In this document: positions 11,128 through 29,780 of the stretch, piece after piece
Layout of the letters: the number at the start of each line of letters is the position of its first letter
Numbering within the stretch: the stretch's first letter is position 1
Source of the DNA: an uncultured Lachnospiraceae bacterium
Lineage (GTDB): Bacteria; Bacillota; Clostridia; Lachnospirales; Lachnospiraceae
Reading direction: 5' to 3'
Assembly: GCA_946535225.1 (NCBI GenBank)
Contig: CAMNDJ010000002.1
Coordinates: 1 to 64,000, forward strand
Length of the DNA: 64,000 bases
Notes under the pieces: model-generated
Told to the model about the DNA's origin: nothing
The model's input: the letters and a program-made list of their open reading frames with translations, nothing else
Database searches by the model: none
Made by a program: the position numbers and the translations under genes

Positions 11128-12464
11128 GTAGTAAAGGTTCAGTCACAAAAACATACAGTTATGAACAGGCGGTATCGTATCTTGATTCGGTACCGCGTTT
11201 TGTTGATAAGCGGTTTGAAGGAGCAAAGGCCTTCTATGAATACCTGAAGGACAAAGGCGTTATAACCGAAGGCGGTCGCAAGGTGTTTCATGTTGCAGGG
11301 ACTAACGGCAAAGGAAGTGTCTGCGCTTTTCTTAAGTCCATGCATATGGCAATGGGTAAGAGAGTCGGAGTGTTTACATCACCTCATCTCATTGACCTAA
11401 GAGAACGTATAACGATCGGTGATGTGATGATCACCAAAGAAGATCTGGCAGATGCATTTATGACAGTGATGTCATATTTGGAAGAATTCAAGTCATCGAC
11501 TCCTTATAGCGATTATGTGCCGGTATATTTCGACTGGTTGTTTTTTATCGCAGCCGTATATTTCGAACGGGAGAAGACGGATGCGATCATCTGGGAGACA
11601 GGACTCGGCGGAAGATATGATGCCACGAATGTGATCGGATATAAGTCCGTGACTGTCATAACCGAGATCGGGATGGATCATATGGAGATCCTCGGAGACA
11701 GCATAGATAAGATAGCATCTGAAAAAGCAGGGATAATAAGGAGAGGGACACCGGTCATAACCGTTGACAGAGATCCTTTGGCGCTTGACGTGATAAGCAG
11801 TGTGGCAAAGAGTATGGGTTCGCCCCTTACGGTCGTGCCGAATGCGTCAGGTATCACGAAAAAAATGAATGATAAAGGGATTGATTTTTCGTATAAATCC
11901 CATTATTATAATAATGCTACTCTAGAGGTAGTGGGTCATGCCGTATATCAGACCGAGAATGCAGCTTTGGCTGTGACGGCAATGGAAGCGGCATACTCTG
12001 CCGACGAACTGCCCTTTGAGTGTGTATATGAGGGAATCAAGAACATGCATCATCCCGGCCGTATGGAAGAGGTCGCACCCGGGGTATTTTTTGACGGAGC
12101 GCATAATACAGACGGGATAGGAGCATTGCTTGAAAGTGTCAGGCATGACGGCTGCAGAGGTCTTAGATATATGATCTTTTCGGCGGTCGGTGATAAGCAG
12201 GCAGATATCGAGCTTGCAATGGTCGCAGAATCGGGGCTTTTTGACAAGGTATGCTTAGTGCCGATATCGGGAGCCAGAGGCAGAAGCCATGATGAACTGT
12301 CGAAGCTACTGACGGTACTTACAGACAGACAGATTTACGGCGAGCTTGCGGGGGATCTGCGGACAGCCTATGACAGTTACAGGCAGGGGTTAAGGGAAGA
12401 AGACAGACTCTATGTATGCGGTTCTCTGTATCTTATCGGAGAACTCAAGGAGATGATCATGTGA
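11124..12464 (+). CDS. folC: folylpolyglutamate synthase/dihydrofolate synthase
   Basis: VAGTNGKGSVCAFL, FTSPHLIDLRERITI, ETGLGGRYDATN, DGAHNTDGI. Confidence 0.95.
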   Translation: MSSKGSVTKTYSYEQAVSYLDSVPRFVDKRFEGAKAFYEYLKDKGVITEGGRKVFHVAGTNGKGSVCAFLKSMHMAMGKRVGVFTSPHLIDLRERITIGDVMITKEDLADAFMTVMSYLEEFKSSTPYSDYVPVYFDWLFFIAAVYFEREKTDAIIWETGLGGRYDATNVIGYKSVTVITEIGMDHMEILGDSIDKIASEKAGIIRRGTPVITVDRDPLALDVISSVAKSMGSPLTVVPNASGITKKMNDKGIDFSYKSHYYNNATLEVVGHAVYQTENAALAVTAMEAAYSADELPFECVYEGIKNMHHPGRMEEVAPGVFFDGAHNTDGIGALLESVRHDGCRGLRYMIFSAVGDKQADIELAMVAESGLFDKVCLVPISGARGRSHDELSKLLTVLTDRQIYGELAGDLRTAYDSYRQGLREEDRLYVCGSLYLIGELKEMIM

Positions 12465-12583
12465 AGAATGATCGTGATCGATCACTCTTTACAGTCCGGT
12501 TTGTGCCGAGCCCAAACCGGATGATGGCGTCGCCGAATCTGATATTCGGCTCGCTGCCTCGCATAGGATGCTCGGCATGGAGG
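12461..12583 (+). ncRNA. candidate structured cis-regulatory RNA, copy A
   Basis: homologous to 28427-28551; P1 GTGAAGA/TCTTTAC, P2 TCCGGTTTG/CAAACCGGA, P3 GCCGAAT/ATTCGGC, P4 GCAT/ATGC, loop GCCGAGC complementary to GCTCGGC next to the SD. Confidence 0.75.
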
Positions 12584-12588
12584 AAACA

Positions 12589-12747
12589 ATGATCAATTTC
12601 GAAGAAGAACTTAAGAAGTTCCATCCTTCACTTGAGATAGAAGAGGCTGAAGATGCCATATACAACCAGGATCTTACCGACATCGCAGATCTTTTGGTAG
12701 GTTTAGTCAAGGAGGATAAGGAATCTGCAAGTGAGGATAAGCAGTAA
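12589..12747 (+). CDS. small conserved-looking 52-aa protein of unknown function
   Basis: SD GGAGG then ATG; MINFEEELKKFHPSLEIEEAEDAIYNQDLTDIADLLVGLVKEDKESASEDKQ; shorter than the ORF track reports. Confidence 0.7.
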   Translation: MINFEEELKKFHPSLEIEEAEDAIYNQDLTDIADLLVGLVKEDKESASEDKQ

Positions 12748-28368: not shown

Positions 28369-28426
28369 CACGAAAGCAGTAAATATAGGCTCTATATGAG
28401 CTGTTTTCATATGATCAGGAGGATCA

Positions 28427-28551
28427 GTGTGAAAAATGATGTTGATACATCTTTTTCACACCTGCGATTTGTGCCGAGCCCAAATCGCTTTATGGCATCG
28501 CCGAATCTGATATTCGGCTCGCCGCCTCGCACTAAGTGCTCGGCCAGGAGG
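28427..28551 (+). ncRNA. candidate structured cis-regulatory RNA, copy B (argG leader)
   Basis: P1 GTGTGAAAAA/TTTTTCACAC, P2 GCGATTTG/CAAATCGC, P3 GCCGAAT/ATTCGGC, P4 GCAC/GTGC, loop GCCGAGC (28473-28479) complementary to GCTCGGC (28538-28544) just before AGGAGG. Confidence 0.78.
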
Positions 28552-28556
28552 TAGAT

Positions 28557-29780
28557 ATGAAAGAGAAGGTTGTACTTGCTTATTCGGGCGGATTGGATAC
28601 TACGGTGATAATCCCCTGGCTTAAGGAGAATTATGATTATGATGTAGTCTGCGTCTGCGGTAACTGCGGACAGGCAGAGGAGCTGGACGGACTTGAGGAA
28701 AGAGCATTATCTTCAGGTGCTTCCAAGCTTTATATAGAGGATATCACGGATGAGTTCTGCGATGATTTCATTATGCCCTGTGTAAAGGCTCATGCGGTAT
28801 ACGAGAATAAGTACCTCTTAGGTACATCTATGGCTCGCCCGGCGATCGCCAAGAGACTTGTTGAGGTGGCACGTAAGGAGGGCGCGACAGCCATCTGCCA
28901 CGGTGCTACAGGTAAGGGTAACGACCAGATCAGATTTGAGCTTGGTATCAAGGCACTGGCTCCCGACCTTAAGATAATCGCTGCATGGAGAGATCCCAAG
29001 TGGAATATGAATTCGCGCGAAGAGGAGATCGAGTACTGCAGACAGCACGGTATACATCTTCCTTTCTCTGCTGATTCAAGCTACAGCCGTGACAGGAACT
29101 TATGGCATATAAGCCACGAAGGTCTTGAACTCGAGGATCCTGCTAATGAGCCTAATTACGAGCATCTTCTCGTACTTTCCACAACACCGGAGAAGGCTCC
29201 GGATGAACCCGAGTATGTGACGATGACATTTGAGAAGGGTACTCCGGTATCACTTAACGGCAAGAAGATGAAGGTTTCCGAGATCATCACTGAGCTTAAC
29301 AGGTTAGGCGGCAAGCACGGTATCGGTATCATAGACATAGTTGAGAACAGAGTCGTAGGCATGAAGAGCCGCGGCGTATATGAGACACCCGGAGGAACGA
29401 TCCTCTACGAAGCTCATCAGCAGTTAGAGGAGCTCATCCTTGACAGAGATACATATGCACTCAAGGCTGACCTCGGCAATAAGTTCGCTCAGGTCGTATA
29501 TGAAGGCAAGTGGTTCACACCGCTTCGTGAAGCACTTCAGGCATTCATCGAGAGCACACAGCAGTATGTCACCGGTGAAGTTAAGTTCAAGCTCTATAAG
29601 GGCAATATAATAAAGGCCGGCACGACATCACCTTATTCACTTTATAACGAGAGCATCGCTTCATTCACGACAGGTGATATGTACGATCACCATGATGCAG
29701 AGGGCTTCATCAATCTCTTCGGATTGTCTACGAAGGTAAGAGCCCTTAAGCTTCAGGAAGCGGGAGTGCTTAAGAAGTAA
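28557..29780 (+). CDS. argG: argininosuccinate synthase
   Basis: [41 protein letters not shown] before ATG 28557. Confidence 0.97.

Follow-up and report, generated by a model that had tools for sequence, protein, structure and literature searches.

The window, meaning the whole 64,000-nucleotide stretch analysed here, holds an arginine cluster (ArgJ, a GNAT protein, ArgG and an amino-acid kinase), and between a presumed host Shine-Dalgarno (SD) sequence and argG lies a compact structured element (Table 1). The four stems that a preliminary description had proposed for this leader, P1 to P4, were all found, and its observation that the P2 loop GCCGAGC is the exact complement of GCTCGGC near the SD was borne out, with a gap of 1 nt to AGGAGG. 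P4 and the full pseudoknot are mutually exclusive, because GC 28538-28539 is common to both. The copy in the argG leader folds with a z-score of -4.4 against 200 dinucleotide shuffles and the second copy in the window with -3.9 against dinucleotide shuffles. Computed accessibility of the SD is intermediate (mean unpaired 0.43), a prediction that is ambiguous as to SD sequestration.

The second copy, said in the same description to differ mostly at paired positions, precedes a 52-aa ORF without family assignment. Its differences are indeed largely compensatory: P2 changes from GCGATTTG/CAAATCGC to CCGGTTTG/CAAACCGG, and P4 from GCAC/GTGC to GCAT/ATGC. In Rfam 15, cmscan returned no match at the gathering score for the element in the window, which the preliminary description had not matched to an Rfam family, or for 14 copies from other genera. 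The snoRNA matches that appear at a relaxed E-value are at chance level and were rejected.

Table 1. Positions of the element copies, their structural parts and adjacent features in the window.
Feature	Position	Strand	Basis or remark
Element copy 2, before 52-aa ORF (12589-12747)	12460..12583	+	repeat search, fold
Copy 2 P1	12460-12493	+	copy 2 fold
Copy 2 P2	12496-12503/12513-12520	+	copy 2 fold
Copy 2 pseudoknot	12505-12511 with 12570-12576	+	copy 2 fold
Copy 2 SD GGAGG	12579-12583	+	precedes 52-aa ORF
Presumed original host SD AGGAGG, upstream of insertion	28417..28422	+	empty argG leaders in G010, G004
Element copy 1, core GTGTG to GCTCGGC, between host SD and argG	28427..28544	+	CM/BLAST boundaries, orthologous empty sites
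P1, near-perfect palindromic hairpin at element 5' terminus	28427..28461	+	fold, covariation
P2 hairpin, arms GCGATTTG/CAAATCGC	28464-28471/28481-28488	+	compensatory change in copy 2
Pseudoknot 5' strand, P2 loop GCCGAGC	28473..28479	+	exact complement of GCTCGGC
P3 whole, with internal loop AUC/UC (GGC-AUC-GCCGAAU...AUUCGGC-UC-GCC)	28494..28523	+	covariation
P3 GCCGAAT/ATTCGGC	28500-28506/28512-28518	+	extended by GGC 28494-28496/GCC 28521-28523
P4 small hairpin GCAC-UAA-GUGC	28529-28532/28536-28539	+	overlaps pseudoknot strand by 2 nt
Pseudoknot 3' strand GCTCGGC	28538..28544	+	ends 1 nt before AGGAGG
Element-side SD AGGAGG, upstream of argG	28546..28551	+	argG start codon 28557
argG (argininosuccinate synthase), downstream gene, outside element	28557..29780	+	Pfam PF00764, PF20979

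Dispersal and pairing of the element

The draft genome to which the window belongs (2.04 Mb, 86% complete) carries 12 clear BLAST copies that are 74-100% identical, all of them in sense orientation with a start codon directly 3', and about 13 similar copies in total. A covariance model (CM) built from 27 copies gave 19 raw matches in genome G000, 40 in G010 and 51 in G004, the last two being sister species; the counts include truncated copies as well as echoes of P1 on the antisense strand. In another 17 species of the genus, matches are few or absent. Carriers make up 42 of the 299 Lachnospiraceae genomes sampled (~14%), many of them with at least 11 copies. Among 392 Clostridia genomes, matches were found solely in two Lachnospiraceae members, and none of the ~370 Clostridia genomes outside Lachnospiraceae has the element. 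Genomes with the exact core pattern are mostly Lachnospiraceae (Roseburia, Lachnospira, Eisenbergiella, Acetatifactor, Parablautia), together with a few metagenome bins that are named less precisely, for example as Clostridium or Bacillus. As far as tested, the element is thus restricted to Lachnospiraceae. Within one genome the P1 types are lineage-specific.

The exact core pattern occurs at 124 places, and the pseudoknot strand is recognisable in 105. An ORF, counted when it has at least 60 aa or runs off the contig, starts no more than 25 nt past that strand in 92 of these 105 copies, usually 14 nt away. The genes that follow are unrelated: argG, leuA (2-isopropylmalate synthase), clpX, folA (dihydrofolate reductase), pyrE, rsmI and fhs, as well as genes for the beta subunit of indolepyruvate oxidoreductase, an ECF transporter component and a Cys/Met-metabolism enzyme. 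Near one copy, the cis-regulatory RNA TwoAYGGAY was also matched strongly (L192:2586-2750, minus strand).

Across 30 genera of Lachnospiraceae, covariation is present in P1 to P4 and in the SD-proximal pseudoknot; an alignment lacking covariation, which would have spoken against the fold as first described, was not obtained. Arms from the same locus pair better than arms exchanged between loci (0/5000 for each of P1, P2, P3 and the pseudoknot; 30 genera). In the family alignment, whose pair counts lean towards the model structure because it was fitted to the model (which did not include the pseudoknot), 35 of 37 pairs have changes on both sides and no shuffle came near, while the 4 pairs of P4 all show double changes with 88% of cells paired. 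The genus alignment gave the same outcome. The fold is under pairing selection. Moreover, G-U pairs are scarce: they account for 10 of the 1177 pairs in P1-P3 and, in the pseudoknot, for 22 of 323. Known RNAs usually contain more; in a c-di-GMP-I riboswitch from one element-bearing locus, the first hairpin has 2 of 6 by our own count from the alignment. With only a handful of known RNAs in the comparison set, the scarcity in P1-P3 is a hint of pairing at the DNA level, in single-stranded DNA.

Several structural variants were observed. One subfamily (L072, L073, L074 and L077 in G010, L093 in G004) has an extra hairpin, GTTGTGCAAGAGAGTTGATCTCAACTCTCAGCCC, in the P2 loop and has lost the pseudoknot loop; since it counts at least five copies, spread does not strictly depend on the pseudoknot. 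In a second one (L091, L092, L094-L101 and L108 in G004), an insert of ~60 nt, TAGGGTCTGCAAGTACATCC...TTGTCTGGC, occupies the P3 internal loop, and many G004 contigs end inside this insert, so the repeat breaks the assembly. An additional GTTTCAC...hairpin lies between P1 and P2 at L271, L293, L313, L324, L326 and L327. Copies with internal or 5' truncations and copies without the pseudoknot remain upstream of genes.

Insertion sites

Orthologous genes in sister species provide empty and occupied versions of the same site, and pairs beyond those given here were also found. leuA is empty in G004 (ACAGGAGGAGTAAA-ATG, also written CATAACAGGAGGAGTAAA-ATG) and occupied in G010 (ACAGGAGGAGTA-[element]-AG-ATG, also written CATAACAGGAGGAGTA-[element]-AG-ATG). 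The gene of an FAD enzyme shows the reverse arrangement, being empty in G010 (CAGGGGATTATT-ATG, also written ACAGGGGATTATT-ATG) and occupied in G004 (CAGGGGATTA-[element]-TT-ATG, also written ACAGGGGATTA-[element]-TT-ATG). Orthologous argG is without the element in G010, G004, G007, G005, G003, G009 and G002, the empty leader reading AAAGGAGATTAAGC-ATG in G010 and AAAGGAGACTGAGC-ATG in G004. From empty and occupied sites, the insertion measures 120-190 nt, is in sense and normally has the host SD on its 5' side and the start codon on its 3' side; the orthologous pairs therefore place the insertion point 3' of the host SD and the first spacer bases. In occupied genes, the nearest upstream SD is now that of the element's 3' end.

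Upstream flanks of 139 copies yield the consensus RRGGRGGATTA, with A at -1 in 126 of the 139. An SD-like sequence lies at -14..-3 in 108 of these copies (78%), compared with 10/82 and 12/81 (~12-15%) at control positions. The copy L353 in G239 is placed close to the 3' end of a gene; the SD-like sequence AGAGGGTA stands on both sides, and removal of the element together with one repeat restores the natural gene end ...VAKRVE*. Since this copy sits at the 3' end of a gene, the target is an SD-like sequence and not the start site as such.

The repeat at L353 is an 8-bp direct repeat, also seen at some other copies, so that an 8-bp duplication can accompany insertion. The two flanks of one locus are more alike than flanks of different loci (0/1000 shuffles), and most copies are without a full duplication. 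The downstream core is the target's version in L018, L353, L183 and L191 and the element's version in L005 and L020; thus a clean target-site duplication of one kind does not account for every copy. Furthermore, nested insertions into the SD of an older copy were found (L072, L033 and L093, the last vs L335), and copies decay from the 5' side with the SD kept.

Mobility, regulation and reading frames

Similar copies dispersed within one genome and presence/absence polymorphism at orthologous sites make it very probable that the structure before argG is one copy of a mobile element that is non-autonomous and specific for SD-like targets. Such an element would consist of 120-190 nt, beginning with the terminal palindrome P1, followed by P2-P3-P4 and the pseudoknot, and ending 3' with an SD-like core (about RRGGRGATTA). 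It inserts directly 3' of host sequence that matches this core, in fixed orientation. A mobility enzyme or process would recognise the folded element and join its SD-like end to SD-like targets, which would make translation start sites its main landing site; joining may take place at a short core common to both, of which the version of either strand could survive. As an SD comes with the element (carried or duplicated), translation of the host gene would continue and the insertion be tolerated. Mobility is the most likely reason why the fold is conserved; the predicted P4/pseudoknot alternative beside the SD may affect translation as a side effect.

The preliminary description had read the feature as a candidate riboregulator in the argG leader. 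A role as a regulator of argG or the arginine pathway is not supported, as copies of the element stand before dozens of genes that are unrelated, and argG, leuA and others are without it in sister species; no consistent link to one pathway was found. The position before argG is uninformative alone, because the window holds an arginine cluster, and an arginine-linked metabolite is an unlikely ligand. What stands of the layout that had been likened to translational riboswitches is the covariation of the stems and of the SD-proximal pseudoknot; in its distribution, the structure behaves as a dispersed mobile element. A wider form of regulation, in which a translational riboswitch or another ligand- or protein-responsive cis-regulator spread to many genes as a useful shared global signal, would account for the conserved fold, for the SD-proximal pseudoknot with its mutually exclusive P4 and for copies that stand in sense at 5' ends, rare exceptions aside; intermediate SD accessibility is compatible with it. 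We nonetheless regard it as distinctly unlikely, since the downstream genes share no theme, sister-species orthologues do without the element, L353 sits at the 3' end of a gene, the SD lies outside every conserved helix, truncated and pseudoknot-less copies persist before genes, and P1-P3 are nearly free of G-U pairs. An intermediate reading, also unlikely, combines both: the copies would be mobile ribosome-binding-site cassettes with an SD-like integration core whose P4/pseudoknot acts as a common translational switch, placing dozens of genes in one strain-variable regulon.

A frame beginning GTG AAA AAT is open across the window copies and many copies of the genus, to within a few nt of the gene start; its stop lies 2 nt before the ATG at L001 and 1 nt before it at L004, L005 and L035. 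The element could on this basis be a leader-peptide cassette, in which the host SD starts translation of the frame across the element to the next start codon and couples the two. In other genera, however, at least half of the copies have the frame broken early or shifted, with pairing conserved, and the start-stop GTG TGA often takes the place of the first codons, so that we hold a leader peptide to be very improbable. This start-stop mini-ORF is common, and its variants GGTTGA, CCGCTA and GAGTGG preserve P1 pairing instead. The GTG AAA AAT frame, which in many genus copies ends at the start codon of the gene or overlaps it, is probably a source of spurious or wrongly extended gene calls.

The mobile-element reading has a narrower form that we consider rather doubtful, namely that the element is a decayed short relative of the IS200/IS605 type or of REP/RAYT, or a TnpB/IscB guide-RNA remnant. 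The 5'-terminal hairpin, the insertion 3' of a fixed short motif in fixed orientation, the motif-like right end and palindromes of single-strand type with few G-U pairs all resemble such elements. The IS200-type genes of G010 and G004 were rejected as a source, however, as their flanks differ from the element, and Y1 transposase genes occur in 7 of 22 element-rich genomes as against 12 of 22 element-free ones, with no match in 15 of the 22 element-rich genomes. The TnpB domain is absent from the carriers G000, G201, G137 and G260, there is no Rfam match, and the 8-bp duplication at L353 would be unexpected for IS200/IS605. The RVT_1 domain is likewise absent from several nearly complete carriers (G103, G137, G255, G260); Y1, RVT_1 and TnpB are each missing from many element-rich genomes, nearly complete ones included, and none tracks with the element, so that no autonomous partner was found. 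A Y1 enzyme may be supplied in trans from elsewhere, or may have been in the past.

Searches for another origin gave no group II intron match in Rfam, for the window element or copies from other genera, no match in the plasmids searched and none in IMG/VR by exact pattern. Three matches in a phage collection (MT837007.1, MT836788.1, MT838414.1) are unverified, unannotated 'Bacteriophage sp.' faecal contigs with ORFs for enolase and a FeoB-like protein; they look like Lachnospiraceae chromosome, and a phage origin was rejected. Neither solitary P1 hairpins nor long autonomous copies were found, the exact P1 hairpins inspected in eight genomes being ordinary copies.

The element looks like mobile DNA that usually targets the gap between SD and start codon and pays its way with a replacement SD, and would therefore be well suited to drive the evolution of 5' leaders in a family that is dominant in the gut; because of it, leaders of housekeeping genes differ between closely related species. 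For motif scans, it is a warning that a covarying, pseudoknotted, SD-adjacent structure need not be a riboswitch when it stands before a biosynthetic gene, but can be a selfish repeat. That G-U pairs are nearly lacking also suggests a simple test of selection at the DNA level versus the RNA level.

Relation to known systems

No earlier description of the element was found in Rfam or in the main text of open-access papers dealing with structured RNAs of bacterial genomes and of human microbiomes. REPs are extragenic single hairpins of ~20-40 nt that are moved by RAYT (HUH) transposases, without SD targeting or a pseudoknot. The element is like REP/BIME sequences in being short, high-copy, non-autonomous, palindromic and placed beside a fixed short motif, but unlike them it is SD-targeted and pseudoknotted and has no associated Y1 gene. 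IS200/IS605-derived elements and TnpB omega/reRNA have a terminal hairpin, an orientation fixed by a motif and a pseudoknotted RNA near the right end. These features are shared by the element, whereas many of its carriers have no Y1 or TnpB, a direct repeat is present at L353, and an SD serving a gene forms its right end. Translational riboswitches of the preQ1-II and SAM-II type have a pseudoknot close to the SD, as does the element, which differs from them in that its genes have no theme, the SD lies outside conserved pairing and its presence is polymorphic between species.

BOX, RUP, Correia and other MITE-like repeats are, like the element, small, interspersed and transcribable with neighbouring genes (pneumococcal repeats: PMC3049150). 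The element differs from BOX, RUP and Correia in the lack of terminal inverted repeats, its near-strict sense orientation, its position between SD and start codon and its conserved pseudoknot. Among the mobile/repeat sequence candidates (MRSC; PMC11109978), which resemble the element as structured motifs present in several copies per genome, MRSC-65-2 is a single long stem, unlike the four-helix pseudoknotted unit of fixed position and orientation found here.
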